From Owenia fusiformis (Eukaryota; Annelida; Polychaeta; Sabellida; Oweniidae), in the NCBI GenBank assembly GCA_903813345.2, contig CAIIXF020000003.1:26615248-26679247 (forward strand): DNA of 64,000 nucleotides, read 5' to 3'. Below the pieces are notes generated by a model. It searched no databases and had not been told where the DNA came from. It saw nothing but the letters and a program-made list of their open reading frames with translations. How positions within the stretch are numbered: the first letter of the stretch is position 1; each line of letters starts with the position of its first letter. Both the position numbers and the translations under genes were made by a program. Below are positions 1-27,256 of this stretch, piece after piece.

Positions 1-109
1 ATAAATGCAGGATTTTCCTGGTTGGTCTTACAATAATTGTGTAACACTTTTATGAGTGATAATAATCAGCGCTTTAATTGTGATATCACAACCATAAGTT
101 TTAGACTGG

Positions 110-119
110 TTTATTTATT
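110..119 (-). terminator. Candidate polyadenylation signal of the MARVEL gene
   Basis: Two overlapping AATAAA hexamers on the minus strand (TTTATTTATT on plus) lie about 515 bases after the TAA at 632-634. The sequence between is AT-rich and otherwise featureless. Confidence 0.45.
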
Positions 120-631
120 TCCTATTCTTCATAAATCAACAACTCTTAAGGTTATACACATAAGGCACATTTTAAAGCATGATATGGTATGTTGAGCCAA
201 GAGCTATCCAAATGATTAAATGATATAAAATGTTATTTCCACAGGCATTTGGAAACTATCTTCCCAGCACAAACATTCGCTTAAAACATTCCCCCAGGAA
301 AAACATGTGCTTAAAATTCTGTATATTTCTATATCTTGTGGATTCCTTTAAATAATAATTATAACATCCCATGTATAAATATGATAGATATGATGAAACC
401 TTATAACTGATCGTTCTTAAAACAACCCTATGGTCATATTATTTCACACATTTTCTCTTTAATATTTGAATAAAGTCGCTACGTTTCTTACAATCCATAC
501 AAAATTGAGTCAGAACTCAATTCCTATAAACTTTAACCCTGGGTAATTTCTCTTTACTTGAACTTGATTTCACACTAGAAATAATAATGACCATTGTGAT
601 ATTTCATTGATGTTTTTTGTCACTGGTTTGT

Positions 632-3600
632 TTAGTATTGTTGGGTGGTCTCGGTTGTTGTAACGGTGGTGGTTCCTGTAGAGGTACCACCCCCTGATGA
701 TGTGGTCAATCCTCCATTTGCTCTCCAGTTACGGAATTGGAAAAATGTGTCAACTGCGTAAACTGCTGTTGTTGCAAATGCGAAAAACTGAAATTCAAAA
801 TATATAGGTATTACGTATAGGTGGAGATTGTATATATTTGTTATGCAATCTAAATACTGAGCTCTGATTAGAGAAACTGTATTATAGCATCAAGAACTGT
901 CAATCAATGGGAATTAATTAGTTGGGCTTAATTGTGTACAATAACAATTTTAAAATCTCCAAAGAAAAATTGGGAGGCTTTATTCTTTGATCTGCCAATT
1001 TATCACTATAACATAAACTTATTTTTTCTGAGGTAAGATAACTTTCTATTAGGGCTAAAGATAATAGTCTTTCTTAAGGCTCCTGTGACTCTCATCTCCT
1101 AAATCCCCACAATGAGGTGAAGTAAATTCATATTGAGGTGATGTAACTCCACAATGCGATAACGTAGATTCATATTGAGATGAAGTAACTCCACAGTGCG
1201 ATAACGTAGATTCATATTGAGGTGATGTAACTCCACAATGCGATAACGTAGATTCATATTGAGATGAATAACTCCACAGTGTGGTGAAGTAGATTCATAT
1301 TGAGGTGATGTAACTCCACAGTGTGGTGAAGTAGATTCATATTGAGGTAAAGTAACTCCACAATGCGATAATGTAGATTCATATTGAGGTGATGTAACTC
1401 CACAAAGAGGTAGAGTAGATTCATATTGAGGTGAAGTAACTCCACAATGAGGTGAAATAGATTTATATTGAGGTGAAGTAGATTCATATTGAGATGAAGT
1501 AACTCCCCAATGACGCAAAGTCGATTCATACTGAGATGAAGTAAGTCCAAAATGAGGTGAAGTAAAGTCATATTGAGGTAAAGTAACTCCGTAATGAGGT
1601 GAAGTAGATTCATATTGAGGTAAAGTAACTCCGTAATGAGGCGAAATAGATTTATATTGAGGTGAAGTAAATCCACAATAGGGTAAAGTAGATTCATATT
1701 GAGGTGAAGTAACTCCCCAATGATGCAAAGTAGATTCATACTGAGGTGGAATAATTCCAAAATGAGGTTAAGTAGATTCATATTGAGGTGAAGTAACTCC
1801 ATAATGGAGTGAAGTAGATTCATATTAAGGTGAAGTAATGAGGTGAAATAAATCCAACGGGAGGTGAAGACAGGAGGGCAGATATTTGATGCAGACTACA
1901 CAGCTACTCCCTATTGGAGACTAAATATAAATGTATAAACCATACTCACTGCAGTAGCCCCAATGGATGAGTGCCAATGGCCCCGGACTGCAGCCACAAT
2001 ACCACAGATGAGGAAAAACAGAGTGAACACGCAATAGTAGATGAACTCCTAAAATAACAATTACAATTATCAATGCTAGGAAAATTAATCACTTCAAATA
2101 TACATTATTGTATATTATATGCACAGTGATCTCCCCAATATTGGTGTAACCAGGTTTTGCACTCCTGGTACTACAGTGCATTATGTTAAACATTACATGC
2201 CACCCTGTTGAAAATCTCTATATTTTGGCAATACCGGTCTATTTTGACCAGAATAGGAAAACTAGGATTTGTACCACGTTGAGAAAATTCCTGGGGAGAC
2301 CACTGGTATACAATGCAAAATAATACAAGGCTGATAACACAGCACAATGATAACATGTTTCATGACACAATTGTAAAAAGGTTATATTCTAGAAAATTGA
2401 ATTAGAATTGACTTCAAAAATCTTAAATTTTCATTATTTTTAAAATCTAACAATTGACTCATTGGTAGCTAATTTTTAAGGTGCTAACAAAATGTACTAG
2501 ATGAATACAGTCATACATATTATTTTATAGAAACTCATAAATAGGCATGTGTATTGTGTTTTAAAGGGATACTCCTAGCCATCCTGTTGCTGTCTTGATA
2601 TGGTTGTTAAGAACCATTTATAAACTATCAATAAATAGGCCCATAGCCAGGATTAGCCAAGGAGGGGGTTCAATTCTAGGGGGTTCACTTCAAACCCCCC
2701 AAATCACCCCTGGCTATGGGCCTGATGAATATAAAAAAATATCAAATTTGATCACTTAAAAATATTTTGTTCATTTCAAAGGGCTGCCATTTTAAAAAAT
2801 ACTTCTTAATTTTCATATATTGAAACAATATACAAGAAGCGCAAAGTCACCTATATTTAAGTTCCACATATATTAGGTTTCCACATTTATATAGAGTGGT
2901 TTTGCTTAAAAAATAAGTTCTATGAAAGTCAATTTTTGCCAATCTCCTTGCTTATTAACTTCCCTGTTAGAAAGATGGCAGCATACTATGGCAGTACTAG
3001 AGATGACCAACAAAATTTTAAATCATCCCTTTTGATCATACTAAAACAATTTCTCATATTTTATGAAGAAAATGTTTAGCAACTATATAAGGAAAGCAAT
3101 GGAGTTAAGAGTATACCTTTAAACCCATAACAAAATTTTAAAACAAACCTTATGTTCAGTCTTAACCCATCAGGATGAAAAAATTGTAATTCTCTGGGCT
3201 ATTTGTAGGCTTCATTCATACTATAATGCTAATACTCCAAACAGAAATTTAAATTTCTCCGAGTTAAAATATATATTTTATCCCAGGTGTTTTGAGAAAC
3301 ATCCATCCATAATCATAATTCTAATATCATTTTGTCTAACTAAAAACTGAATGATGTACCACTGGCGGATTAGGGGGGGGGGACTGGGGGCCCGGGCCCC
3401 CCCCCCCTTGGGTGGGCCCAGAAAAAAAAATTGGGCCCAAAAAACTTTTGGGCCAAACAAGGCCTTCAGGCCCCAAAAAGTGGGCCTTTTTGGTCATTAC
3501 TGGGCCTTTTAAGGCCTTATTTTTTAATTTCAGGCCAAATTTTAAAGAAAATGGGCCTCAAAATTTCAAAATTTGGGCCCACTTATGGATTTTAGGGACC

Positions 3601-6600
3601 CAAAATTTTTTTCCGCGCAAGTGCTGACAATTTTTTCACTGACCTGAACTTTGGGCCCCCCCCCCTTGTTGCTTCCTAGTTCCGCCCCTGTGTACTAACA
3701 TTGATACTTTTCCAACATCATTGTTGTAAACAACACAACAATGAATGAAAACTGTACTTACAATTAGAAGCCTCCATCCTGGCATCCTATCCATGAGACC
3801 AATGATGTAGAAGATGAGGAGGAGCCCTGTGCTAAAGAAGGAAGAGATGGAGACAAACTCCACCCAACCCTGTAAGCTGCCCCACCACGCTACCACAGCG
3901 CAGATAAAGGTTATCAGAGAGAGCACCTAGATAGCATCATATAGACACAATCAATTGTGTTAAATAACTGCTATTTACATTAGAAACCATGCAGCCTTTC
4001 CAAACCTCCTAACCAATCGAGGCACAAGCCATAACAGTTCCAATGGCACAGCCAGGGATCTCAAACACATGCACCTCCATACTTGTTGATGCATTCAGTC
4101 AAATATCCTCATTCCCAATATTCTAATATGTTAGTGCTACCAAAATGCATTCATAAACTGAAGAGCCAAAGAAGGCCATCCATTAGTTTAAAACAAGCCC
4201 TTGCAAAGATTCAATCAATGGGGCCAACGTTTCCAATTGTTAAGGAGGTTGTGCAGTTTAGTTTTAGTACAGGTGATGCAATAAGAGAAAGAAGAAGCCC
4301 AAGTGCCCAAGTACCATTAATTCCTGACAGCCAGATGAGTTCCTTAGTGACATCGTGTTTGTCACCATGACAATGAATAAATGAAAAGATGGCTGGATTG
4401 AGAACTTTTATCACCCATCGTCTAATTAATAATTGTACTTGTTAAAGCATATATTTTCATCTGAAGCTTCAATTTACAATCAGTACCCATGGAAATGGTA
4501 TGTATAGTCAGACAACAGTATTTTAATATTAAATATATCCCAGCGTCTGGTTACATGACTTCTGGTTCCACACCTTTGCATGGGGCTTTTCACCAATTTG
4601 CTAACTTACATTTAGCACCTATATTCCCTTGTAGTTTCAGCTTCTGACCCCCGGTGGTCATGTTTCCTCCATATTATATGTTTCCCTCAAATATGCATCG
4701 ACGACCCTCAAAATTGTCTATGTTTATTCAGATAATAAACTTACACATTCATCCATGGTCCTGGTATAATTTGGTTCCGACTATTTACATCAACCACTCA
4801 TATTTTCTGCAGGTTTTCCAAAAATAACTTGCAATCAATAGCCCTGGAAGACTGATTTGTTGAGCGACTATTTTTTGGTGTATTCTTCAAATGTCAACTT
4901 ACAATGAGTATCCATGGTCCTGGCAGCTTGCCAATAAGGCTGCTGACATGCAGGAGGAGCCAGATGATACAACAAACGAATGACGCCATGGAAACAAATC
5001 CATTCCAGCCACCGCCATAGGGTTGCCAATACGGCCAAATCACCCCACATATAAATGTGATCAAACTTAGCACCTACAACAAATGCGCCATTCAAAAGTT
5101 TATGTGGGATCCCCAACATGCGGCAACTCTGTCAGTTCCCATGTCTGAGCCAGGGATCACACATATGCATGTACCTTTATATTAGTTGACTGAGTCAGTG
5201 TAATTCGTTCCCCATAGTACATGTATGTATGATACCATATTAATACTCCTAAAATGCATTTAAAACAGCAGAGAGCATCCATTAGTATATAACAAGCCCT
5301 CAATACCAAGCAAGCAAGCAATCAATTATTTAGGCTAGTTTCTAATTGTTAATAAAGTTTTAATGGAGTTTTTGCAATGGCATTAATAAATACCGGTATA
5401 TGCAATGCAATGAGGGAATGAAGAAGCCAGATAAAGCTGCTCATCGTTATCTTTCTGATTGCTAGATAAGTTGCATATTGACATCATACCTATCACCATG
5501 ACAATAATGTAAAAGAAAGTTCAGGAAAAAGATAGATGTACAGTGTAGTCTAGACAACGTACTTATACACAGCCAATAGTCAGTTCATTTGGTGCCGAAA
5601 CATCACCGAAATTTGCCACCCAAACAGCGTCGAAAATCAGATTGCATTTTGGGAGTGTAATATCATTTATGACAGATACGCTTTCCAAGATTTAACTGTC
5701 GGAGTAAGGAACTAAACCACTGTAATTGACGTTACAAACAGAAGTGAAGAAGTAAGACATCTAACACATCAACTGATATTCACAGACTGACATTTTGCCA
5801 TGTCTAAATTTTTCAGTAGAGGGCTTCAACTGGCAGTCACGGGATATGAATGCCACCTTCGCAGCAGCCTTAACATCTGTACTCTTGGACCATTACAGAA
5901 CCGTTCATATCACATAGGCAAGATGCCCAATGCTGAAACTCAACTACTTCTACTATCTCCACTTGCTAAAACCCAGAAGAATGGTCAGGCTTGATCGGAC
6001 AATGAAACATGGACAGGGTCAGCATGAGCATTCCTAAAAACTTGCTGGCCACCAACCTCTTCCATTGCTGCAATGCAGACTTAAGGAGAGACATAATCTG
6101 AGACCTTTGTACCAATGGAGAGAAGGATCTAATGGCCTCCAATGAAGGTTCAACAACCACTAACTATGAAAATGGTGTGAGTCTGACTATAGTATATTAA
6201 TGTCTAATGTCTGATTGGGTGAATACAGTACCAGTTCTACACCCATGTATTGTATGGAGTTTTTCACCAAATGGTTATTTTACCCTTTTTACTTACACAA
6301 AGGAAATGGCAGATACTTTTGTTTTCAGAAATTAGATGGTAGAAATTTTGTGATAAATGATAGAAGTGCACAAAGAGATAATTAGGATTCAAATATGAAC
6401 CATGGGATAACACCTCTTCTTCTTACCACTCCTTGTAGCTTCAGCTTCTGGCTCCTGGTAGTCACAATTCCCTGATGTTATATGTTTCGCTCAAATTAAC
6501 TTACAATGTGTATCAACGACCCTCATAGCTGGCTATGTTTATTATATGACAAACTTACACATCCATGGTCCTGGGTTCCGACTATTTGCGCCAAACAGCT

Positions 6601-9047
6601 GTCATATTTTCTCTAGGTTTTCCCATAAGAACTTAAAACCAATGGTCCTGGAAGATTGATCTGTTGAGTAACTACTTTTTGGTGTTTTTTCCAAATGATT
6701 AACTTACGATGAGCATCCATGGTCCTGGTAACTGGCTGATCAAACTGCTGACGTGTAGGAGCAACCAGACGATACAACAAATGAATGATGTCATGGAAAC
6801 GAAACCATTCCAGGCTCCACCCTGGGCTTGCCACCACGGCCAAATCACTCCACATATGAATGTGATCAAACTTAACACCTACAACACAACACATGCCATT
6901 CACCTCTTGTGTGCCCAGATCAACAGATATATATGTTTTCATTACCCACAAACAACATGTGATTTTCTCCAATTGCTTTTACCAGAACTATTTCCATATG
7001 GAGATTATAATTTTCAATATTTTGCCTGTTGTCTCCATTCAATGTTACTTGTTGTCATAAATTGCAATGAAACTCCTGCATTACTCTGGACAGATTACAT
7101 TTCAACAAAATGACCTTTAAATGTGTATGTCTGCCGAATGAACACCAAATCAGGTTTTAAGATTGAAAAATTGTAAAATTGGTCCAATAATGAAATGCTC
7201 TGGTATGCAAGAGATTTAATTCACGAACTTGGTGATTGTGGCCGGGAGAATAAAATCAATAATATAAATGCAAATTCAGCTGGTATACATAGACTTAGAT
7301 TTTCCCCAATATTTCTTTCAATGTCAGAATGTAGCAACTCTGGTAGGAATCCCCATTGATCAAGGAAGGAAGATAATTAAAACAAGGCATTAAGATGCAA
7401 AATGTCACCACCTGTTTGTTACAGACACTGACTGCCATACACCAACCGCCATCCAAATGAATTGGAGACCATAACAATATGTCACCACTTCTGGTGGTGA
7501 CATAAAAGATTAGGGGGACAAAATGCAGTTTTATAATAGTTTCACAACATGCAAAAAGCAACCATATATACCAAAATCAAACCATTACAGCATTTTCTTG
7601 GTCAAGTTAGTCTTGCATCAAGCATTTTATACCAAGTAACCCCATAACATAACATATATACTGTGAGCAAGAATATACATGAAGCAGGGGGGAGTTAGGA
7701 TAGACTTGATGCAAGACTTAAATACTGTTACTTCTACAAAGTTTTGGATAATCATTATTCAGGAATGCAACATATCATCAGAGATCACGGTAGACGTTCG
7801 CCATTCGCCAATTGCGAATTTTCGAAAGAGGTGGCGAAAAATATGTAAAGGTATTTCGCAGTTATGGCGAATTAGAGGTGTCACGGTTTCCCGATATTGG
7901 ACCGAATTTCGGTCCAGATGCTTCGGTTCGGGACATGGGACAGGAAGGGTTAATATCGGTACATAGATTCCTTCACTAAAATGCATAAAAACGTGTATAA
8001 ATAGCGAGGAACACCTCCGATTTCGTTCTGAAATATTTTCACTTACCTCGTACCTAGATTACACTTCTTTGCATTGAAAAGTGTTATTAACGGACCCGCG
8101 ATTTCAGGTAGATGGTAATGCTTGTTCGTAAATTTCTTTATCGTCGTTCGCAAATCTAGTGCATTATCAGTATGCCGGATGTAGGAAAGAAATTGAAAAA
8201 TCGAGCCGGCATCTAAGTCGAAAAAGTCGGCAGTTTGGAAGTATTTTGGGACTCCGATATCACAAGGTAAACGAATTGGTAATATTACACCGTGCAGACT
8301 ATGTGAAATGCCGATCACATTCGCGGCAGATGCTTTACATTCAATTTTAATGGACGTTTTTTTATTCCTGAATATGATTTTGAAAAGTGAAACTGAAAGT
8401 GAAACTGTCATCATCAGACATTTCATCATTTTTAATGTTCTGTCCCGTCCCATCCCGAAAGTAACGTGTTGAGACCATTTGTACCGTTCCGTACCGTACC
8501 GAAATTTTCTTGGACCGTGACACCTCTATTGCGAATTCCCTTTTTTACGGTTTTTCAAAATGGCTAATTCATATTTTGGTTGGCTAAAAATATTTTGGAA
8601 GATTTAGCCACAATGGCTAACAAGTTTTTTCAACTATCGTGATCTCTGATATCATGTTGTAAGCTATTATCCAGATAAGCAAGGCATGTATCATAATAAA
8701 GTGTATGTTATTTATTTTATATTTTATATATCATTATTTTATTCATAGCTTTTTTGACATTACATGTACATGCTTTAGAGTATGCGTGTGAATGTTTCTG
8801 ATTTTCTCTGGCATTTTCTATTATTTCAGATTTAATATCTTTAGACTTAATCCCATGATAATCTAATTATGAATTCCGTCAAAGATAATCATATTTAAGA
8901 AATACTTACAATTTCTACAATTTTGAGGATTCCTGGTATAGTTTTAATATAGTCTACATTCACATTAATGCGTGGTCCCGAAGATGAGCTACTTGTAGTA
9001 GTTGTTTTTGTTTCATAGGTGGAGGGCATTCCGCTTTCATCTGCCAT
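632..9047 (-). CDS. MARVEL-domain four-helix membrane protein (CMTM/plasmolipin-like), split gene
   Basis: Coding exons, in transcript order: 9047-8910 (46 codons, ATG at 9047-9045), one of three alternative exon 2 copies (6878-6708, 5073-4903 or 3926-3762), 2048-1950 (33 codons) and 787-632 (51 codons plus TAA). All junctions are GT-AG and phase 0, giving 185-187 aa. The N-terminus is a short Ser/Thr-rich cytosolic tail followed by DYIKTIPGILKIVEI, the juxtamembrane signature of CMTM/plasmolipin proteins. Exon 2 supplies helices 1 and 2, exon 3 helix 3 (IYYCVFTLFFLICGIVAAV) and exon 4 helix 4 plus a Thr-rich tail ending TETTQQY. Known family members are tetraspanning proteins of membrane traffic and membrane domains; the substrate or partner here is unknown. 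An acceptor at 9084-9085 (TTTTCAG) upstream of the ATG implies a separate 5' UTR exon. The family call is firm; the exact orthologue (CMTM4, CMTM8 or plasmolipin) is not resolved. Confidence 0.85.
1106..1850. repeat. Minisatellite with 21-bp subunits in a 42-bp higher-order unit
   Basis: The array alternates two related 21-mers, AGGTGAAGTAGATTCATATT(G) and AGGTGAAGTAACTCCACAAT(G), giving about 17 higher-order units in the last intron of the MARVEL gene. Because 42 is divisible by 3, the array stays open in several minus-strand frames as 14-residue repeats. That is a by-product of the unit length, not a gene. Confidence 0.9.
2637..2723. mobile_element. Short MITE-like inverted repeat
   Basis: AGGCCCATAGCCAGG at 2637-2651 is repeated inverted as CCTGGCTATGGGCCT at 2709-2723. 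The 87-bp body is G-run/C-run rich. No clear target-site duplication is visible. Confidence 0.6.
3360..3693. mobile_element. G/C-run-rich element with imperfect inverted ends
   Basis: The left end CACTGGCGGATTAGG and right end CCTAGTTCCGCCCCTGTG are imperfect inverted copies. Between them are runs of G and C and repeated GGGCC motifs. It lies in the intron between exons 2a and 3. Open frames across it are low-complexity artefacts. Confidence 0.5.
3762..3926 (-). CDS. Alternative exon 2a of the MARVEL gene (most divergent version)
   Basis: This 165-bp, 55-codon exon is flanked by AG at 3927-3928 and a GTAAG donor at 3757-3761, phase 0 at both ends. It begins VLSLITFICAVVAWWGSLQG and ends MPGWRLLI. 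It encodes the same two helices as exons 2b and 2c, but the loop and second helix differ strongly (FFSTGLLLIFYIIGLM). It is the exon 2 copy nearest exon 3. Using one copy gives the normal four helices; including two would give six, so mutually exclusive use is inferred. Confidence 0.85.
4471..4860 (-). repeat. Serial decayed copies of the exon 2 3' end and donor, beside exon 2b
   Basis: Reading minus, motifs like CCAGGACCATGG followed by a GTAAG-type donor recur near 4826-4856 (now GCAAGT), 4740-4765 (GTAAG kept), about 4700-4720 (heavily decayed) and 4476-4500 (CCATGGGTACTGATT then GTAAAT). They match the last 20-30 bases of functional exon 2. Several are spaced roughly 40-90 bases apart. 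No acceptor or body of an exon accompanies them. Confidence 0.6.
4903..5073 (-). CDS. Alternative exon 2b of the MARVEL gene
   Basis: This 171-bp, 57-codon exon has an AG acceptor at 5074-5075 and a GTAAG donor at 4898-4902, phase 0. It starts VLSLITFICGVIWPYWQPYG and ends LPGPWILI. It differs from exon 2c at about 10 of 57 residues, mostly in the extracellular loop (YWQPYGGG versus WWQAQGGA). Intron sequence on its transcript-downstream side is also shared with the exon 2c copy, so the duplicated unit was larger than the exon (about 1.8 kb between donors). Confidence 0.85.
6490..6660 (-). repeat. Serial decayed copies of the exon 2 3' end and donor, beside exon 2c
   Basis: These are the equivalent array downstream (in transcript sense) of exon 2c. 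Fragments at about 6500-6540 (ending ACACATT then GTAAG), 6555-6580 (CCAGGACCATGGATG then GTAAG) and 6622-6655 (CCAGGACCATTGG, donor lost) match both the exon 2 end and the array beside exon 2b. The array therefore predates duplication of the 1.8-kb unit. Confidence 0.6.
6708..6878 (-). CDS. Alternative exon 2c of the MARVEL gene
   Basis: This 171-bp, 57-codon exon has an AG acceptor at 6879-6880 and a GTAAG donor at 6703-6707, phase 0. It starts VLSLITFICGVIWPWWQAQG and ends LPGPWMLI. It is the version closest to exon 1. The reading frame is intact with no stop or splice-site damage, so it looks functional rather than a relic. Confidence 0.85.
7779..8648. mobile_element. Non-autonomous DNA transposon with 7-bp ATATCAT duplication
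   Basis: The ends CAGAGATCACG (7779-) and CGTGATCTCTG (-8648) are inverted, and ATATCAT occurs directly at both flanks (7772-7778 and 8649-8655). The element lies in intron 1 of the MARVEL gene. It carries no recognisable transposase and contains a second element. Confidence 0.75.
7874..8527. mobile_element. Nested transposon with AGAGGTGTCACGGT ends
   Basis: AGAGGTGTCACGGT at 7874-7887 is perfectly inverted as ACCGTGACACCTCT at 8514-8527. Subterminal sequence is rich in GGTCC/CGGTACC palindromes. GCGAATT lies close to both ends, a possible imprecise target duplication. No transposase ORF is seen. It sits wholly inside the 7779-8648 element, so it inserted later. Confidence 0.7.
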
Positions 9048-9083
9048 TTTGATTTCTTTATTGTTCCCTTTTGGAAGTCACTC

Positions 9084-12000
9084 CTGAAAAGACAGAATAA
9101 GATTGATCCAATGAAGTTTAATGATTAACGTTTTGATTATTAAAAACCATGTGACTTGCATGAGTCATATCAATATCTTCAATAAGGAGCTCCCATATAT
9201 GATAATCATCCATAGTCATATCATAAATCCAAAAATGTACAAGTAGATTAAAAAGGTGGAACCAATAACAAAAAAATGCAATAAGCGCAAATTAAAGAAA
9301 AATCCCTGACTATCAGGTTCTGCGCAATTCCAATCACTATAAGTCAATGAAAGTTATAATCAAACTTCATTAGTCACATTTGGCATAAGATATTTCAAGG
9401 TGTATTCACATAACAAAGATTCTAACATATGGTTACCATGCCAACTGACAACATCTTGCAACTGGAAACTATCTGTTGCTATAACAACCTTCCACACATA
9501 CCTTAACAAATACAGTTTGTTTACACCTGTCTTCACCACAACTAGTGTAAAGCCATATACAGTTTATAAAATGTCACAGTGTTCTGACTTTATAAAATAG
9601 AATCTTGATAAATATAGTAAGAGGAAAAGGTGGAATTTCCTTGTACAGTTGTACTACTAGGGATTTATGACTCAACTTGAAGTAAAATATAAAGTAATAA
9701 AACTGGTATAACATACTAGGCACCTTTCTCCCTAATCATGTTAACCAATATAGGGGGGCCCCAATATATACGGATTATGCTGATGTTAGCTGACCATCCT
9801 GATTCCTGATTAACTGAACTTAACGACATAAGGAGCAAGCACCATTTCTTTAAGTCACATTTAAAACTGTTCTTTAAGTCACATTTAAAACTGTTCTATA
9901 TAATTATGAATTCTGCCTTATTGCACTGCGTGTAGAGAATCAGTGACGTTAGGATTACAAAACTATTTCCTCATACTCAAGTCCTATTTTAGTACATCAT
10001 CCACCTGTTGCTTACTCAACTTTACAGTAAAGTGTATGGTACAGTAAAACTTGTATTTGTGGTACGCCTCAGGTCACTCTTAAATGTTCTACTTGAAAGT
10101 GTTTCACTTAAGGTTTTATAGCAGGTTTTACAGAATACAAACTACACTATTCATTTGATTTGGAAAATGTACATATGTATTTTGTATAACTTCAACATCA
10201 AACACACAAATTGTTGACATAGAACAGTGACCTAATTGTCACTACATTTATTTGAAACTTTACATTAACTTCATTTTTTTATCATTTTAAAAATTATAAA
10301 AATTTTGAATAGTTGCCCTTAAATAGGAAATATTGGTATAAATCAGGATAAAATGGGATGATTTGACTAAATTGAGCAGAACCTTGAAAATGAGAATTTT
10401 TGATAGATAAAGTCTTCACCTTTTAAACATGTTCCTACCACCTTATAAGCTCGAGTTAATATAAAAACAAACTGATATACTGTACAACAGACAGAATAAA
10501 TCAGATTCAAGCTGTTGCCTCTTGATCAAGTTGAACGAGAAAATAATTTTTCTAAAGGCAAAATCCATACACTAAGGTCAATCACAGAGTCAATGAATCA
10601 TTTTCCAAAAATGAAGCAAAATCAAGAGTAAAAAATATGTGGAAAATTTATAACCGGGTAAAAAAATTTAAAAATACAAATAAACAATTTGTCACATTCC
10701 ATTTACCTGTTCTCTGTTCTCACTCAGTTTCTACTTCAATATGTCAATTCATCCACCTGTTGAACACCATAACCACCAATATATCGACAGATCAACAACT
10801 TTTCATAATCCAACATGTAAGGCCATAACAGATCATCAGTTGCATAAAATGGAGGTTAAATTCCAAGTAGCTGATCATGGATGTCTTCTTATAGACTACA
10901 CCTTTATTTTTAGAGCTGAACTTCACAAAAAACAAACTCCCACTATGTTACTGACTGTTATAATACTTTCAGCGCTGACCCAAAAATAAACAAAACTTAA
11001 CAATTTCCTCAGGGTGTTTCATTTAAGGGTGTTTACAGTTTTGACATTTGCCATGAAAAAGGTAAAGGATGGGCCACTTAATTATAAGGTTGTTTTTACA
11101 AAAAATGGTTTGTTGTTTTCATAGTAGCAGACAAAGGGGTGGGGGCAAACTCTTATTTCTATTCATTTATTTTTCTTCAAAAGGTGAGCACTAATGCATA
11201 TAAGCCATATATATTTTCAAAAAGGTGTTCAAATATTGACCCCCTCCCATTAAATATCCCAGTACATTTGGTTATACCCGTGGAACCTCCTTAACACGTC
11301 TTCATACATTAACTGAGCATGAAGCAGGGGTTTCACTAGTATATCTCACAACAGGCTAAATAAATGAAAACAACAGGCAAAATCAATAGAAATCATAAAT
11401 TCAACATGGAAAAGTTGAAAAGTCTAAAAACAACAAGTGATTTTGTGATTTTAACAAATGATGAAAATCACCCACTGCTAATAAAATCCTGAAAAAGAGT
11501 CCAACTGAACAGTGGGACTACAGTCAATATGAGATAATTGGCAATGATTGTCCATTTACCCAAAATTTCTTTATCTCATAAATGGTACAGCCCTGAAAAT
11601 TCAACATCTTTAAAAAAGACTATTACATGGAAACTGCAAAGTGGTACCATTCTATTTTGTATTTTCTCTACCAATGTAAATACTCTCTGAGTCACTGAAG
11701 TTGCATGTAGCTGTAAAACTTCTAAGTGATTTAAAAATTTCTGTGAAATTAACATTTTGGCAATGAAAACATCACAGGCTGTATCAATAAATCATTAACA
11801 CATACACTGTCAATAATGAATATCATAATAAAATAATATAATAAATTCAAACATGACTGTATTCCCACCTTTTATAAACTGTGAACAAAGTCAATATATT
11901 TCACTCGGTATCTATTCTTCGATACAATACCTAGCTGGTATTAAGTGTTTCGTTCACTGCTAAACTCAAACTTGGGAATAGGAAATAAACAGACGATTAT

Positions 12001-12413
12001 GAGGAGTTTTCAGGTTCGAATCCTAATTAAATTTAAAGAGCTTGGATATATTAATATAGACCTCAGATTGCTATAATCAAGTAATAAATACCTTAGGGCT
12101 AGGCACAAAAGCTTTTTTAATTTGAACCAAGAAAACATTTGTGCCTATAGCCCTGCAGTATTTACTCGCTGATATAATACCTCCTCTTCAGTTTATATTA
12201 ATATATTATCAGATGATGTAAAAGAATTACACATTTAAAAGTAAACTTTCAATAAATCAATTGTGCAAGCCACAAAGGTTCAAGTGAAAATATAAGTGAT
12301 AAATACAAATGCAAGGCATGATGTAATTTCCGGTATCAGAGAGATTCATAAAATTTATCATTCATCTTGAGATTCCAGAAGCATTAGATAAAAAGTGACT
12401 CTGATAATATAAG
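9084..12413. other. No gene seen
   Basis: This is AT-rich sequence without a convincing ORF or splice-bounded exon. A 24-base direct duplication (CTTTAAGTCACATTTAAAAC type) is visible near 9848-9897, and a small inverted repeat (AGGGCTAGGCACAAA / TTTGTGCCTATAGCCCT) at about 12084-12155. If the 5' UTR exon near 18986 is real, this is intron. Confidence 0.6.
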
Positions 12414-12720
12414 TTATTGAATGATTTGAAGTGCAATACAGGACATATTCTGCTCGAGAAATTCCGTATTGGAACGAGACAAAGTCGAGTGCCAATACAG
12501 AATATCGAGAGCAGAATATATCCTGTATTGCACTTCAAATCATTCTCTAACGTTTTTATCATATGATCCTCTGTATTGCTACTGAGAATGTCCCCTCCGT
12601 ACCAATATTTTCTGTAATGCAATGGAGATGATCAATGGGGACGATCTCAGTAGCAATACAGATTGGTACAGCACAAGAACTGACCAATCAGAAGGCTTCG
12701 TTTTACAGATCATACGATAA
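12414..12720. mobile_element. MITE family 1, copy 1
   Basis: The 307-bp element starts TTATTGAATGAT and ends ATCATACGATAA (inverted ends), with a long internal hairpin formed by ATTTGAAGTGCAATACAG and its inverse. A second copy lies at 37065-37377, with matching ends and interior, in an NFS1 intron. Confidence 0.8.
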
Positions 12721-15700
12721 ATCAGAATATGTTGAAGGCAAACACTCTTGAAACCTGTCTCAACCAGACGCTACTGGGACCAATAAAAAGCATTCAGATT
12801 AGCATTTATTCAGTTTACATTTCAAGGCTTTTACCACATGGTAATCAATGGCAGATTTAACGAAGTTGGTGTCCCCACTTATGGTGGTGGCATCAATAAA
12901 GTGTAGTGATACAGGTGGTTTACTTTACTTCAGTCTTGGAAGGTTTAACTTTTAAAAGTATAAATAATCGCTCGGAGGATGTGTTGCATTCATATTATAC
13001 GTAAACATGCAAAGTGGAGTCAGTAGGTAGAAAACTGGGGGACCTGGAACCTTAAAAAAATACAGAGTTTGTGAACTAATTAACTTTACCTCCATTCTGA
13101 TTTATCAGGTAGAGTACCTCTTTATCTACCTAGTTGCTAACTAGAGCAACTACAAGACTAGAGGCTATGAGTAATGATTCTACCAAAATAAGACCTGTGA
13201 CCTGTACTTGTTCAGGTATATCTATTTTATCCAAATACCTCTCTATTCTGAACATATCTTGAAAGTGTATGCATTTTTCAGCCCGATGTTTTATCTTTCA
13301 GCCTGATTTTTTATCTGCCTCATGTTTTAAAATCATATTGAAAATCTTGCTGCATTTATCTGTATAATGCATTAAGCATAAACTACAATTGATCTCAAGG
13401 GAAATGGTAATGAATCTGAGTGAAAAATACTATGAAATTATGAATAATTCATCATGTATAATGGTATAAATGCTGTTCAGCAGTATTATTTGTAACCAAT
13501 CTTAAGTCCAGGGTATTTCAATCATTTCCATAGCTGATAGAATTGAATTAAGGGATACATCTATAGATTATGTGTCTAAGTGAGCAGTTGAATCGCCAAC
13601 ACTGATAATTTGCAGAACCATCTTATAATTGACCCATTATGCCATGCCAGATTTAGCTAACATAATTGATACTATTAATCAAAAAGAGCTTGAACACTTG
13701 ATCATGTTTTGTTGAACATGTATTTATATAATTCCTTAGTACTATATAGGGCAGCTATAATATTATAACCTGAAGGTAATCATATTGTCCTAATATCTTG
13801 AAATGCAAGATGGATAATTAAAACGTCAACAAAAACAAAGTAAAAATATATAAGGAATGAAGCGAATACTGGTACTCCCGAATTGGAAAAAACACGAAAC
13901 ATTCACATGAATTTATTCAAATTTTACAAAGAACTGAGAACAGTATTAAATTATGAACTAATAGCGGAGGACAGATCAATCATAGGTACAATCATATAGC
14001 ATGATTGTATGATAGTATTCATAGATAGTACCTGAGGCTGTTAATTACCTTGATATTCTCTAATTGAGAACTTTGCTATTAGTTTTATGATAACACTGGA
14101 CACACACTAAATATGTTGACACTTGTAATGAAATGATGATGATGAATCAAAAAATATTTCACCAATCACTAAATGTTTCACTGAATAATGATATACATAA
14201 TGTGTAAACTCGGAGAATATTCCATAAATACTTTTATGTAAAAATTTTCGACAATTAATCAATTTCTAAAAACATTCATTTTTAAAAGGAGCATTCTACA
14301 TTTAAAGATGTTGTTCTGTGAAACCAGTTGACCTGATTTCAACATTTGAGTGATTTTCTATATCGACACTTCATACGTCATGTACATTAGTTTTCCTGTA
14401 ATTTCAAAGTAATAAATTCACCTGCATGTGTGATTCCATAAAATGAGCTATAAAACATATCATGTTGTCTCATATGTTTAGCCCCTATATGCAAAGATCA
14501 TTATATACCTCAATCAAGGGCAAAGGTCTGAGACAGAATGATAAATGTCCTTATGAACTAAAAGATAAGTTAACCCATTTATTAGGGCTTTTCATTAAAA
14601 TGCATGAATTAAATTGTGCCCTTTGAAATACCAAACAAGTACTTCAGTCATCAAATGATTCTAGTAAATAATCAATAATATTTTTACTGCAGCTTCATAT
14701 TTTCACACATTTTAATTTCAATATTTCAGGCCTACATAGGTCTAAAAAAATAGAGCTAAAAATAAAAGCTAAAAAATGTAAAGACTAAATTAGTCTCCCT
14801 ACACTATTTATGTCAATGTGTAGACAAAATTCCCTTAGAGAATGCATAACTCTTAACAGAGCCTCGCATTCATTTTGAAAGCATAAAAGAACTAACTTAA
14901 TCGGAGATACCTTGGGTTCCTATTGCTTATATAGGGTCACACTGCCCTAGTCTGGAATTGGAGAAATGATAACTCTATGAGTCTATGGGAATCTCCACAT
15001 CCCAATCTTCTGTTCTATAAATCATTTACAAATACTCAGTTCAATTTGTACGATTTAAAGATAATAAATTTTTCCTCTACACTTAATATTGCCAATTGAA
15101 ACAGGCACACGATATTAGTTGCAAAGAAAGTAGAACCTCCACTTCCTTCAAAAGTGGTGTTAATTCCTTCAATAAAGTGAGCACAATGTTAAATTGATCT
15201 GTTTATTTTAACACAAAAGTCAATACAAAATGAATTTTTTATCGAGACAAAAATCAATTTAGTCATAAAATCAGCTCTCTTTCACTCATAAAGTAGAATC
15301 TGGCTTGATAAGATGAGGTACATGTACCTTACAGTATAATAACAGAACATAAAACTAAACCTTAGGTAGACCTGCATGATGAGATTTTTTGCAATATTGA
15401 AAAGAAGACCGCTCAATTTTTTAGTTATTTATACATTCTAAAGAAAGTGAAATCTGACCTAACTTAAAAAAATTGGATCATCCAGATTTCTCTCCCGGAC
15501 AATCAGTAATGTCCTAATATAACTGCTCATATAACATCATTTATACCTTAGATATATTTTGATCATGAGCACAGTTTCACCAATATATTGAGAAAATCAA
15601 CAGGACAACCAAAGAACAACCATCTGTTTAGAACACAATAAGTCTAAAACAACACACAATTGTTTAGATTCATTTATATTGCAAAACCCTTGTAAGTATT

Positions 15701-15757
15701 AGTACAACATTCAGAAAGGATAAAAATATGTTGTGTCAAAAAAAAGAAAAAAGAGAT
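12721..15757. other. No gene seen
   Basis: AT-rich sequence with frequent stops in all frames. No repeat, RNA gene or coding exon can be supported here. Confidence 0.6.
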
Positions 15758-15850
15758 TGCCCACGCCAGAAATCGAACCCCAACCTTTGGGACAAAACAA
15801 TAGATTGATAACAGATAAGAAGTCCGACGTGCTACCTACTGCGCCAAAAG
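15758..15850 (-). repeat. tRNA-like relic or SINE head
   Basis: On the minus strand an A-box-like TGGCGCAGTAGGTAGCA (15830-15846) is followed by a B-box-like GGGTTCGATTTC (15769-15780) and then a T-run that could end Pol III transcription. The acceptor arms do not pair, the T stem is weak and there are about 20 extra bases between the anticodon-like arm and the B box. It is therefore not called as a working tRNA. Confidence 0.4.
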
Positions 15851-17011
15851 ATGGTTTCATATGATACCTGTCGAATTTTATAACCTGCCTCAGCTGTCAA
15901 TCTCTCAACGTTCAACAAAACAATCTACTAAATGCACTTAATGAAATATGCATATAGACAAACCCTTGATTAGTTTGACAACAAATCATGAAAAAGTTAA
16001 CATTATTCTCAATGGGAGAACTTTTCTTTCTGACGAGGAAAACAAATTATTATTCAAAAAACTCTATTGATATTTCATTAATTCATGAAGATTTTAAAAA
16101 TGATCTGATGTCTCCGAATGCTGTACCCCCCCCCCCCTTTACCAGTGATAACATCAAATAATGTATATGGAAAACGTTTTTGTATTAGCTGACAGCTAAT
16201 ATGTAATCCAATATATATAGTATTACACACACCTCCCTCAACAAAGGTCAACGTGACAATTTGACATTTTGTGATAAATTGTTAATTTCCTTTCAAGATA
16301 ATTATTGGTGCCCAAATGCTTTATTTCCTAAAATAATAATCTATTATCATTAAATGAAATAAAAATTAGGGTAATTGCTTTCCTAGAACTAAAGTTATGT
16401 ACTTTCAAAGATAGCAGGCATCACAAAAACTTATTGAAATCAGTGGAACGTACAACGGAATAATCAACAATTTCAAGTTCAACTTGTTTTTGTCTTTAAC
16501 ATTCATATTTCAAGAAATAACTAAAGTACTACAAATAACAATAACAATTAGTGATTTAGTAAGATAATATATAAATGCTGACTTATTATAATTTCAATAT
16601 AATTTCGGTCCGATTTTCGCAAGCAACCACATAGCAACGGGATATAAATTGAATTTGTGAAATTGAAAAATCAGAGGTAGGGGAAAATAAAAAAACGATA
16701 TCTAAAATTGGGAGAGTTTTATCATTATAATTCTGGTACCACATTAATTAACTAAAATCGATTTTCATGAAATAAAGCACGTTGGAAAGAGAATTTAATC
16801 TGTTTAATGAGAGAAACTATCTACTAAACAGAGTAATAATGATTAATTTGCATCTTCTACAGTATTAGAAACAATCATTGAATGTGATTATATACATTTT
16901 ACGAATTTCATTTTTATTGGCTTACTGCCGACTATTATAACTTTGCCCCACTACCCCCAAATCACCTTGATTTATACGACAAAAAGTGCCATTTATCTAT
17001 GGCCGAATCTA

Positions 17012-17709
17012 GAAAAACTAGACAATGGCAACTCCGCGGAGTAGCAAATCCCAACGAACAAAATATCAATTACCGAATTCCAATCAATTATACTCATTAC
17101 TTTGGTTAAAATTGAAAAATTTAGATTTTAGAATTGCGAATTCCTGCAAAGCAGCCATTTTGAATTTTCTGAGGTACAAATCTGAAGAATAATACCATAA
17201 TTGTGATCTACTCCAAAATTCCTTCAATTTGAGTATAATATAGCCATACTTAGAAGGGATCGAAAAATTATTGCGAAATCGTACATTAGACGGCCATTTT
17301 GAATTTTACGAGGCTCGAATCAGAAAAAAGATACAATATTTGCAATCTACTCTTAATAGCCTTTCATTTGAGTATAATAAAGCTATACTTCAGAAGATCT
17401 AAAAATTAGCGAAAATTACTGTTTTCCTGACCCCCCATACACAGCCCCTGGGGGTCAGGATGAAAAACACAATATATGTGAAATAGGTAGATGTTGCGAA
17501 TATACTACCAAAATTTCAAACAATAATATTAATTACTTTGGTTTAGAATGAAAAATTTATGGTTTTTGCGAAAAAGTCCCGTCATTTCTAAAGCGGCGGC
17601 CATCTTGAAAATTTTTTTTTTGCGTACAACTATTCACCAATATACATCTTTCCACTAAATATGAAGAAAATCTGTCAACTCGTATTTGAGTTATCTTCTG
17701 GATGGACAG
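17012..17709 (-). repeat. Dispersed repeat family 2, copy A (truncated)
   Basis: In reverse orientation this matches the copies at 28631 and 35381. It carries the CTCCGCGGAG end, the GTTCGTTGGGAT motif, the CCCCCATACACAGCCCC(T) block and the AACTCAAATA stretch, and stops at 17709 where a MITE begins. The GTCCGTCC-rich terminal part is missing. Confidence 0.8.
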
Positions 17710-17918
17710 ATAATGTACATGAATGACATTTGTATATTTCAGATTTTTTAGTTTTTTGTGCAATAAGCCTGTGTCGTCTTGTAATTTGAAGAATTTCAGC
17801 CATGTTAATCTTATTGAAAATAACATGGCAGAGAAACATCCAAATATAAGAGGCCACACACTTTATAAGCCAAACTAGAAGCAATCCAAGATATACAAAT
17901 GTCATTCATGTACATTAT
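17710..17918. mobile_element. MITE with perfect 28-bp inverted ends
   Basis: The 28 bases at 17710-17737 (starting ATAATGTACATGAATGACAT) are perfectly inverted at 17891-17918. The 209-bp element sits exactly where repeat copy A breaks off, and sequence beyond it does not resume that repeat. Perfect end identity suggests recent activity. Confidence 0.8.
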
Positions 17919-19300
17919 GAATATACTTTTCCATATATTATTGCACAATGGTCTCCCAATTTCTTATTTTTGCCGTTCTACTGACGAAATGAAGCAGTGA
18001 AATGTTATCCCGTTCCCGGACTATGGTCCTGTGAACATCTCAATCTTTTGCCTGTGCGATTACAACATGGGAGAATTTTTTACTGATCTTACACTTCAGA
18101 TACCTACTTCAATAGATTCCTTGGTAATTTAGCATTCTTTTCGTGTAGTTGAATCCACAATTGTATGGGTTTATCGGCATAACGAAGACATTTTCGTTTT
18201 TGATCGCAATATTTGCGTGTAACATTTAACTTATTTCAACCGTCAAATTCCTCCGTATTGGTACTTCCGGGCTACATCCGGGACAGCCAAACGGGGGCTT
18301 CCCCTTTTAAATCCAACCGCCATTTTGAAAAGTGATGGAATCTCTCTCGATGAAAAAGAGAAAATGTTCCTGTTCTGCCGATATACCCAGACAATCGGCG
18401 GTTCCAATATATTAGAAGTTACATCTTGAGTTCTATAATGCATTGAGAATTTGAGGTAGGTATCTCAGGCCTGTCAACTGTCCCGCAATTTGCGTATTTG
18501 TCACGCATTTGCTGAAGAATTTGAAGTCACGCCAGTTATTTTTGCGTGACAGAAAATGTCACGCAAATACGCATTTTACCTGGTAATTGTCAAGCAAAAA
18601 TATTTCTGTAGAAAAAGTTCTAAAAAAGATGGTCTACACAGCAAAAATACGAACGGCGGAAAAAAATGTACGCATTACGTTCGGACTTTTCACGCGAATT
18701 ACGTATATGTCACGCATTCCGTTCGAAATTTTTCGTCACTACCAAGGGCCATTGTAAAATTATAATTGACTTAAGATTCATCAGCACCTGTTGAATCTAA
18801 TTAATTAGGATTCCTGACCTGATTTCCAAAGCGAAAGTCAAACTCAAAAATAATTCCCGAACTTGATGCAACTTTTCAGCTGAATGTGATACAACAAATT
18901 AAATATAATCATTAGCATCATATCACTGAAAAATCAAAGAAGTAAATGAAATCGTCAAATCGCGTGTACAAGTGAATTTTCTTACCTTAATTGGATGTTT
19001 TGCCACTGATTCCGACAATATTTTTAAAACTGCCCTGCCCCTTCAGGAAGTCACGTTGTAGTCTCGTCACTTTCGAGATTACACTAAACGAAAATACGTT
19101 CAATTACCCGGGATCTATTACAAAATATATGGTTTAGGAGTTAAAGGATGTATATAACTATTAACTTAAAGTCCTTAGAAAACAATGAAAACAAGTTTTT
19201 GAAGAATACCATCAATTAGATTCCATTTCATGAACTAAATTCAATAAATACTCTTTCGCTTTCTAATCGAATGTGAAAGTGCTCTAATAATGAAAGTGAC
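17919..19300. other. No gene; GTCACGCA-rich patch
   Basis: No coding exon is supported. At 18480-18730 variants of TGTCACGCAAATACGC occur repeatedly on both strands, likely the remains of a foldback element. The rest is unremarkable, apart from the candidate UTR exon near 18986. Confidence 0.5.
18986..19060 (-). other. Possible 5' UTR exon of the MARVEL gene
   Basis: A good donor (AATTAAG then GTAAG, reading the minus strand) lies at 18981-18986 with no other gene to claim it, and the MARVEL start exon has an upstream acceptor at 9084. Joining them implies an intron of about 9.9 kb. The far end of the exon is a guess, and only RNA data could confirm the link. Confidence 0.25.
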
Positions 19301-19323
19301 CATAATCGGGGGGGGTGTATAGA

Positions 19324-19455
19324 GGGTCTTGGAAATGCATATACAATATTTTTCAGCTCTCTTATACCATATACAATATTTTTTCACCATATACAATATT
19401 TTTCACAGCTCTTATACCATATACGATATTTTAGGTGAAATACAATATACGATAA
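19324..19455. repeat. Subterminal ATACCATATACAATATTTT array, left
   Basis: At least five variant copies of a 20-30 base CCATATACAATATTTT unit lie just inside the left end of the 3.3-kb element. Their counterpart at 22480-22612 has the same orientation although the outer ends are inverted. Confidence 0.7.
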
Positions 19456-20440
19456 TTTTGAAACTGCTTTTGATTAAAGTTTGGATATTTATAAGGAAAT
19501 AATATTATATTAGGAGAGAATCCATGTACTAAAGTAAATGTATTATTATAAGGCAACTAGACTCCACATACATACCACAATGATTTCATTTATTTCATTA
19601 TGAATTAGACACCATTCGGGTACATCAGCATCAGAAAAGCTGTGACCACATTTTATTTTCAGGTAAACAAGTTGATTTAAAACACATTTATGATATAAGA
19701 TTCATGACTTCTCTTTAGTGATTTAGCAACCTAGTTTGACCAAAAAAACTAACTATGACATTGCTACAATTTGCTAAAGCCATTAGCCCATTACCTGTAA
19801 AAGTACCATAAAGATATTCAAAATTAGCACAAAACCTGCATCATTGGAATGGGTGGAACCTAGTGCTCCTCTTTCTTATGACCTACTTTCCCATGACTTA
19901 TTTAAATGTCCTATAGTGAGCCAGGGAAAAAAATTCTTGAAACATAATTGATGCAAAATTGAGAATGTTGAATAAAAGATTCATCATGTGTTCTATGAAA
20001 ATAAAGTTTGCTGAGGAAAATATTTATCAGATAGATAATGAAGATTCACAATGCACAATAATTTTGTAAAGCAGTTACCTGGAAAATATTAAGTATTTAA
20101 AACAGTTTCAGAAATAAAGGACTTCACAAACTTCCATGTAGATAATTCATTTTTGATTGGACTCGAGTCTGGAAACAGAGTTTGAAATAAAGGCAAGATG
20201 AGACTTGATTGTTTAAACATTTGAAACATGAGACACTTCGGGGTTTCAGATAAGGCAGCCTCAAAGACAGTATAAGTTAAACAAAGGTGTGTCAAAATTA
20301 AGCAAATTTCCATGAAGGTCAAACCACATGTTTCACAAATGATTTCAAGGCAAAGATGTATTGATGAGAATGAAAACTACTCTATGTAACTAGAAATAAC
20401 TTTCTTTTAAAGGACCACGGACGGTATCGCAACAGTTTCA

Positions 20441-25537: not shown

Positions 25538-27037
25538 CTAAGCTGGACAAGTTCGCAAAAAGTCTTGATCAAAGAAAATGACTGTAACTGTGATGTCATC
25601 ACGATATAGTCGCACAATATCTTGCGGGATGGATAGCATTAACGACAGTTTATTATGCTGAACTCCAAACTCAGATGTTCCAAGTGCATTCCTGATCAAA
25701 TGTGTCGCTGAATTTTTATCAATTGCTCGATTTTCAATTCCAGATTTCCTTTTAAGGAGAACTGAATTGATATCCTTCAGTTTTACTCCTTTGTTTGGGA
25801 CATAGGGGTCATAGGTTTGTTTTCCCGTCATATGTTGCCCAACAAGACGTATCACCATGTCAGGACTTAACATATCCCATAATCCATCAGTAGCAAGAAT
25901 GAGGAATTTGTCTTGGGATCGTAATCGGTGATATTTTATTTCAGGGCTGACAGTTAAATATGGTGGAGTGTAGTAGTTTGGAGGTATAAAATTCTGGGCA
26001 TAAGGAGTGTTCATTGCCATGGTAAGTTTTTTTAAGTCTGCATGCTGCCATTTGTAGCGGACATCCCCGAAAGCTCTAAGAGGCGCCAACTGTCCGAGTA
26101 ATCGATCATTTTTTATTACAAAGTTTGATTCACTGGAAGGATGATTATCTTTGATACGTTTTACTTCTGTCAGATTCTGAGCATTGTGTTCTTTAGAAAG
26201 CTCTGTGGCGTGCCACCTGTTTTGGTCCTCGTCGTAGCTGCCTAATACTGCCATACTGTCACCAGAGTTGGCTATGTGTAAATGTGGACCATCAATATGT
26301 GCCACACATGCCACTGTCCCTGAGAATGCAATGTCGATCATCTCAGGATTGATAACAAGTCCATTAGCACCTGGCATTGCCTCAGTTGATATGTCCTGAT
26401 CAAGACGCACAAAAGCACTGGTAAGTGCATCCCACATTACAAACTCGTGATCATCTTCCATACAGCTTGTCGATAGCATCTCTGTGACGTAACGATGGAG
26501 ATTGCTCCTATACAATGATGCCATTGATGTGTTGAAATAATCGTTATCATGCCGATACCAATTCAGTAACCAAGTATTCACAGATGGGAGCCTATCTTTC
26601 AAAGCATGGTTGAATTCATCCAGTAAGTGGGGAGGTAAAAGTGAGACTGCTATGTACTCAAATAAACGTTCACTCACTGCTTGAGCACATGCACACCCTG
26701 CATGACCATCAAACACTCCAAACATTAACCCATCGGTTTGGGTCAGTCGTGCCTCTGATCTGCGATCTTCAATGGGATCATTACTTGCGAGTTGATTTGT
26801 ATCAAAACTCCTGACAGATTTTCCACGTTTCAGTTCAAAAGTATTTTCATTATTGCGTAAGATTGAGCTGACTTGCTGAGGAGTCAATTTAGGATACGAT
26901 AATGTGGAACCTGCATCATCACAGCGGTTTGCCACATGTTGACTGAAAACCACTCGTTTATGGTGACCATTGTCTAGTTGACTCAATCGTGTCCATATCT
27001 GACGATAGTTTCGCCATATCACTCCACCTATTTTCAT
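25538..27037 (-). CDS. PDP1: Pyruvate dehydrogenase [acetyl-transferring]-phosphatase, mitochondrial (PDP1-like)
   Basis: A single-exon, 499-aa PP2C-family phosphatase that would remove phosphate from the E1 alpha subunit and so reactivate the mitochondrial pyruvate dehydrogenase complex. Seen in order: an Arg-rich, acid-poor N-terminus fitting a transit peptide; the PDP signature NDPIEDRRSEARL; metal-binding VFDGHAGCACAQAVSERL near residues 108-125; SGTVACVAH; GDS; HNAQN; RAFGDVRYKW; FIPPNYYTPPYLT; ATDGLWDM; and RDDITVTV near the C-terminus. Length is close to vertebrate PDP1 (about 530 aa), which also has one coding exon. The frame is open 33 bases further upstream but only from a GTG, so the ATG at 27035-27037 is chosen. 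A CGGTCAG acceptor at about 27062 could receive a UTR exon. Odd point: the usual GDSRA reads GDSMA. It is divergent from NFS1. Confidence 0.95.
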   Translation of the reverse strand: MKIGGVIWRNYRQIWTRLSQLDNGHHKRVVFSQHVANRCDDAGSTLSYPKLTPQQVSSILRNNENTFELKRGKSVRSFDTNQLASNDPIEDRRSEARLTQTDGLMFGVFDGHAGCACAQAVSERLFEYIAVSLLPPHLLDEFNHALKDRLPSVNTWLLNWYRHDNDYFNTSMASLYRSNLHRYVTEMLSTSCMEDDHEFVMWDALTSAFVRLDQDISTEAMPGANGLVINPEMIDIAFSGTVACVAHIDGPHLHIANSGDSMAVLGSYDEDQNRWHATELSKEHNAQNLTEVKRIKDNHPSSESNFVIKNDRLLGQLAPLRAFGDVRYKWQHADLKKLTMAMNTPYAQNFIPPNYYTPPYLTVSPEIKYHRLRSQDKFLILATDGLWDMLSPDMVIRLVGQHMTGKQTYDPYVPNKGVKLKDINSVLLKRKSGIENRAIDKNSATHLIRNALGTSEFGVQHNKLSLMLSIPQDIVRLYRDDITVTVIFFDQDFLRTCPA

Positions 27038-27256
27038 TCCAAAAATAGATCTGTATCCAACTGACCGCACAAAATGTTAGAACAGTGTACACGGTACAAA
27101 TGATTAAGGAATGATTTTGCACATTTTGTTAGAATGTCAACACCTGACAGTTAAGGTCAATTGTTTGTAATGGAGTACATCAGAAACGAATGGTGATCGT
27201 GTAATTTTTCCATTTGGGCAGCCCTACCAGTGGGCTTGGCATAAGATTTGCTTCAG

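Follow-up and report, generated by a model that had tools for sequence, protein, structure and literature searches.

The MARVEL locus and its predicted products

The window analysed here, a stretch of 64,000 nucleotides from the annelid Owenia fusiformis (contig CAIIXF020000003.1, positions 26,615,248 to 26,679,247), carries on its minus strand a MARVEL gene consisting of exon 1, three tandem copies of exon 2 (designated 2a, 2b and 2c), exon 3 and exon 4 (Table 1). All coding-exon boundaries are in phase 0 with AG/GT sites. The exon 2 copies are 171, 171 and 165 nt in length, respectively, and contain no stop codons; their acceptors end in TTGTAG (2a), TTGTAG (2b) and TCTAG (2c), whilst the donor is GTAAGT in all three. 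The exon coordinates, phase 0 ends and intact splice sites reported in the first-pass annotation of this DNA were found to be exact. An acceptor-like TTTTCAG/GAG, with an exon starting at 9083, suggests that a separate 5' UTR exon may be present upstream of exon 1.

Inclusion of a single copy yields products of 187 (2a), 187 (2b) and 185 (2c) amino acids, and all three exceeded the curated cut-off of the Pfam MARVEL profile PF01284 (32.8 bits), with scores of 45.6, 48.9 and 45.9 bits, respectively. Hydropathy analysis, conducted with a 19-residue window and a threshold of 1.2, gave two segments when no exon 2 copy was included, four with one copy, six with two and eight with three, confirming the earlier statement that one copy results in four helices and two copies in six. 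The helix 4 segment is weak (1.41), and each single-copy product is predicted to possess the four helices of a MARVEL protein. The exon 1/2 boundary falls within the helix 1 segment, and the exon 2/3 boundary borders helix 3 and cannot clearly be placed within it. A sequence search of the PDB with the 2b product retrieved no match better than E 0.33. Since a four-exon, all-phase-0 layout with an exon 2 of 55-57 amino acids also fits human MAL, the family label should read MARVEL (MAL- or CMTM-like) instead of the CMTM-type originally assigned.

Table 1. Coordinates of the MARVEL gene, its introns and other features within the window
Feature	Position	Strand	Description
Coding exon 1	9047-8910	minus	46 aa; N-terminal tail and the beginning of helix 1
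Exon 2a	6878-6708	minus	57 aa; remainder of helix 1, outer loop 1, helix 2, turn up to helix 3 start
Exon 2b	5073-4903	minus	57 aa; recent sister of 2a
Exon 2c	3926-3762	minus	55 aa; top score against exon 2 of the C12 paralogue
Exon 3	2048-1950	minus	33 aa; helix 3
Exon 4	787-632	minus	Helix 4, C-terminal tail, stop
Proximal intron after 2a	6431-6707	minus	Copy at 4627-4902; candidate splicing-control sequence
Proximal intron after 2b	4627-4902	minus	Copy of 6431-6707
Distal part, 2a-2b intron	5133-5518	minus	Two blocks homologous to blocks in 4035-4386
Distal part, 2b-2c intron	4035-4386	minus	Two blocks homologous to blocks in 5133-5518
Partial exon 2 end, 2a-2b intron	6583-6553		Followed by GTAAGT; possible decoy donor
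Partial exon 2 end, 2b-2c intron	4766-4739		Followed by GTAAGT; possible decoy donor
Inverted pair	3408-3372		Self-pairing G/C run
Inverted pair	2610-2560 with 3123-3076		Intron after 2c; 76% over 51 bases, second-highest score
Inverted pair			Outer ends of the intron 1 transposon
666-base element, intron 1	7868-8533 (within 7768-8659)		Terminal inverted repeats of ~20 bases
Dispersed short repeat	5577-5667		In the 2a-2b intron
21/42-base tandem repeat	1099-1895		In the last intron; minus-strand open frames (222 and 213 residues)
PP2C phosphatase	25538-27076		Single 512-residue open frame; presumably pyruvate dehydrogenase phosphatase
Reverse-transcriptase open frame	44846-46399		RVT_1, 131.8 bits; retroelement
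Thr/Asp-rich open frame	48916-59160		3414 residues, repeats; mucin-like by eye

Several repetitive sequences occupy the introns of the gene. For the 666-base element of intron 1, 40 of 277 genome candidates were scored (own copy included) and found to be 93-100% identical, which indicates a young mobile family; an outer pair of inverted repeats suggests that this element is nested within another. The dispersed repeat of the 2a-2b intron had 39 further scored matches in the genome, at 87-93% identity over ~83-97 bases (40 of 399 candidates scored).

Similarity of the exon 2 copies and signs of selection

Alignment of the encoded residues revealed that 2a and 2b are identical at 47/57 positions (shuffle z 26.9) and 2a and 2c at 25/54 (z 9.9), hence the likeness of the copies is greater than expected by chance. 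At the nucleotide level 31 of the 171 bases differ between 2a and 2b, comprising 11, 2 and 18 changes at codon positions 1, 2 and 3, respectively, with 10/57 residues altered. The first-pass annotation had located the differences among the copies in the extracellular loop and helix 2, a description that holds for 2c against 2a and 2b; between 2a and 2b, four of the ten residue changes are found in loop residues 13-24, but this concentration is not significant (P=0.19).

The dN/dS ratio of 2a and 2b was estimated at 0.16 (0.113/0.706) by NG86, 0.14 by LWL85 and 0.22 by maximum likelihood, with no value returned by YN00. When the same count of changes was placed randomly over 2a, a mean of 20.1 amino-acid changes resulted and a stop codon was introduced in 86% of 20,000 runs. 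Had one copy been neutral since the 2a/2b duplication, ~27-28 amino-acid changes would be expected beside the 15 silent codon changes, compared with the 10 observed. None of 340 accepted neutral-copy simulations (125 and 215 under two transition biases) had ten or fewer amino-acid changes at 15 silent changes, and a smaller, looser run produced 1/134, 0/105 and 0/61 such cases. Free drift of 2a or 2b since their duplication is rejected, although the test would miss a copy that fell out of use very recently.

No rate ratio could be obtained for copy 2c, whose divergence leaves silent sites saturated or undefined. The first nine residues, VLSLITFIC, are identical in all three copies, with codons that differ at 8/9 positions between 2a and 2c and 7/9 between 2b and 2c; 200,000 random trials gave 0 (2a-2c) and 2 (2b-2c) such cases. 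In L001, the paralogue located on contig C12, VLSLIGFIC is encoded following a similar exon 1 end. Retention of this motif in every copy is as expected if each joins exon 1 directly, completing helix 1. There are, therefore, signs in the sequence that each copy is under selection, and these, along with the structure of the gene, lend support to the earlier proposal of interchangeable exon 2 copies.

Paralogues and the search for further copies

Six 10-kb loci of the genome with MARVEL matches were compared, and a comparable phase 0 exon 2 was present in just two, L001 and L003 (contig C3). The exon 2 of L001, seen as a single copy with phase 0 boundaries, encodes 64 amino acids, and its exon 3 encodes 33. 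Alignment of the L001 exon 2 scored 103 against 2c, 57.5 against 2a and 64.5 against 2b (z 10.8, 4.7 and 5.1, respectively), with plain identities differing little (25, 23 and 23 residues). On the basis of this best score, 2c is probably nearest to the original form of exon 2. The 55-residue, phase 0 exon 2 of L003 is about equally far from 2a, 2b and 2c (z 4.4, 4.9 and 4.2), and thus does not help in deciding which copy is original. One exon 2 was seen at L003, in a stretch that stops 332 bases beyond it, short of any exon 3, so that additional copies may follow. This locus has two exon 1-like starts (513-656 and 2246-2347) ahead of the one exon 2 seen (9504-9668), as well as an internal repeat of ~4.1 kb (the same short matches at 3594/7705 and 4272/8383). 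The remaining loci were either judged to be chance matches (L002 and L006) or matched the PF01284 profile below its cut-off and had other exon shapes (L004 and L005).

No further full exon 2 copy was identified within positions 1-20000 of the window. No convincing additional exon 1, 3 or 4, and no convincing separate gene, was detected between the copies, where the searches gave only short matches with E 0.24 or worse. Among the matches listed from genome searches, close exon 2 copies were confined to their own locus, with weaker matches elsewhere. A genome search with PF01284 gave eight matches, all of them weak and under the cut-off, and the gene's own exons were not among them, so it does not represent a census of the family.

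Duplication history and introns

The two introns between the copies measure 1634 nt (2a-2b) and 976 nt (2b-2c). The block 6886-6431 matches 5081-4627 (77%), whilst later blocks pair 5518-5405 with 4386-4276 (70%) and 5300-5133 with 4201-4035 (68%), demonstrating that these introns are copies of each other. The history shown is that of an older two-copy gene (2ab and 2c), in which 2ab was subsequently duplicated along with its downstream intron to give 2a and 2b. Copy 2b has a mixed upstream region, in that roughly the final two dozen bases preceding its acceptor align with those before 2a, and the sequence from 60 bases upstream onward aligns with that preceding 2c.

The proximal intron, compared after 2a and after 2b, has diverged by 17.9% (47/262) versus 30.5% (119/390) for three distal blocks (P=3e-4); the block 5132-5074/4034-3927 (27/54 mismatched) is not clearly homologous and was omitted from the distal pool. 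Fourfold sites of 2a and 2b were changed at 5/18, a proportion statistically indistinguishable from that of the proximal intron (P=0.34). The slower-changing proximal intron may be a splicing-control sequence or a tract of local gene conversion. Each inter-copy intron also harbours one partial copy of the exon 2 end followed by GTAAGT (Table 1), and an exon extended to these possible decoy donors would immediately run into a stop codon (GTAAGTTAA after 2a and GTAAGTTGA after 2b).

RNA pairing and local structure

Docking/selector pairing was assessed for five homologous blocks against three candidate docking regions, amounting to 15 tests with 60 shuffles each. The lowest P value was 0.02 (dock 5655-5642 with selectors 5259 and 4150) and the next 0.05, neither of which is significant after correction for the 15 tests; the dock at 5655-5642 lies in the dispersed repeat of the 2a-2b intron. 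Local folds at the six splice sites had z values of -1.8 to 0.5, and for the lowest of these, at the 2c donor, 10/200 shuffles were as good.

A plain inverted-repeat search over 2049-8909, for which the best score of a reversed-sequence control was 17, detected three pairs above the control, none of which touches an exon copy (Table 1). The pair within the intron after 2c could be the two termini of a foldback element. Of the pairs that involve an exon copy, the best joined 3769-3745, which covers the 2c donor, to 5364-5340, and its score of 17 was no higher than that of the control. An Rfam search of window positions 1-9600 returned two matches (E 0.36 and 0.5), neither of which came near the gathering score.

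Splicing of the exon 2 copies

The three copies are neighbouring internal homologous exons of like length and the same phase, as in a cluster of mutually exclusive exons. The locus is best described as a single MARVEL gene in which exon 2 was tandemly duplicated twice, and whose mRNA probably contains one copy at a time. Splicing of 2a, 2b and 2c one at a time is the reading we favour from the sequence, as the exon 1-facing end of each copy is kept unchanged and is located inside the helix 1 segment. The same argument was employed by Hatje et al. (PMC5740500), for whom a copy end within a secondary-structure element argues for exclusive rather than cassette exons; their argument concerning the side of the membrane is inapplicable here, given that each copy adds a helix pair. 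Many highly similar neighbouring exons were also described by these authors as not being spliced exclusively.

None of three simple exclusion mechanisms (steric hindrance, U2/U12 mismatch, and frameshift with NMD) applies at this gene. The inter-copy introns are too long for steric exclusion, all sites are GT-AG, which removes U2/U12 incompatibility, and the exon lengths are multiples of three, so that joint inclusion remains in frame and yields an even number of hydropathy segments, leaving no role for frameshift and NMD. In the account given in PMC5740500, 57 of 629 human clusters are potentially steric, five are U2/U12 and 377 contain exons whose length is not a multiple of three, the last being a property from which the present cluster differs. 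Pyrimidines occupy 9 (2a), 8 (2b) and 10 (2c) of 17 acceptor positions, compared with 13 each for exon 2 of L001 and L003. Such weak acceptors are no clear mark of the exon 2 copies, however, since the acceptors of the gene's own exon 3 (10) and exon 4 (11), and that of L001 exon 3 (11), are scarcely stronger.

This lack of an exclusion mechanism in the sequence tests is one of the points in favour of regarding the copies as cassettes used independently, several of which may be spliced in series, so that proteins with two, four, six or eight helices would be made. All copies are frame-neutral, each adds a helix pair that leaves both protein ends on the same side, and the hydropathy profiles do exhibit six and eight segments for two and three copies. 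Nonetheless, the nine residues facing exon 1 are unchanged in all three copies, although a serial product would need them in one copy only, and the end that bears them sits inside helix 1; we therefore regard serial joining as unlikely. A switch of helix number, whereby tissues would combine zero to three of these frame- and topology-neutral modules to obtain two, four, six or eight helices, with loop exchange in addition, appears decidedly unlikely.

It is very unlikely, in our estimation, that one copy, probably 2c, does nearly all of the work whilst the others are unused or decaying. The top score of 2c against exon 2 of the C12 paralogue would accord with this, as would the 2a and 2b acceptors with just 9 and 8 of 17 pyrimidines, yet both 2a and 2b have been under selection since their duplication (a very recent loss of use would evade detection), stops are absent and the GTAAGT donors have been kept. 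That allelic copies were placed in tandem by an assembly artefact is scarcely credible: no point was found in its favour, and against it 2a and 2b differ at 31/171 sites and 2c at far more, the inter-copy introns are of unequal length, and no second locus for the 2b exon was present among the genome matches listed.

With one copy per mRNA, the gene would encode three four-helix proteins with a common helix 1 start, helix 3, helix 4 and tails, differing in the first outer loop and second helix. The choice of copy may be steered by trans-acting splicing factors, for which the likeliest control site would be the slow-changing intron directly downstream of 2a and 2b. By analogy only, the loop and helix 2 could alter the selection of partners or lipids. 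If the copies are indeed exchanged, one MARVEL gene would give rise to several proteins whose only differences lie in outer loop 1 and helix 2, and these would form a natural series for asking what this region recognises. Such a choice of copy would lie beyond steric or frame rules, and the cluster holds two duplications of different age, the recent 2a/2b and the older 2ab/2c.

Comparison with known systems

Human MAL has four exons of 31, 56, 42 and 24 amino acids, all in phase 0, and minor transcripts that arise by alternative splicing of exons 2 and/or 3 (PMC8145151). The Owenia gene has in common with MAL the four-exon, phase 0 plan and an exon 2 of similar size (56 residues in MAL, 55-57 here), but MAL, as described there, has one exon 2 and its alternatives consist of exon loss, whereas several exon 2 copies are present here. 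Exon 2 is likewise an alternatively used unit in CMTM8, whose variant CMTM8-v2 is without the second exon; the exon is absent from v2, with no duplicate reported in that source (PMC7691587). In mouse MarvelD3, two common first exons are followed by either exon 3.1 or exon 3.2 (PMC8282860), which represents a choice between alternative exons in a MARVEL gene, albeit of two versus the three found here, and exons 3.1 and 3.2 appear to be terminal exons. Alternative exon use in MARVEL genes is thus not new, and the earlier remark that this splicing pattern was not described for the family stands in part: MarvelD3 exons 3.1 and 3.2 and the loss of exon 2 from MAL and CMTM8-v2 were already known, whilst searches of the open-licence literature, a body of work that mostly excludes subscription papers, turned up no MARVEL gene with a tandem internal set of exon 2 copies.

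The association of tandem exon duplication with exclusive splicing is well known from Dscam, 14-3-3zeta, Mhc and others (PMC6071210, PMC9013439). The present cluster resembles those described in these sources in its neighbouring homologous exons, which are similar in length and phase, and in an intron that was copied with its exon. It is unlike them in that the pairing tests gave no significant docking/selector pair, and in that its exclusivity is inferred from sequence. One unusual property of this cluster is the topology-neutral helix pair that serves as its repeated module.
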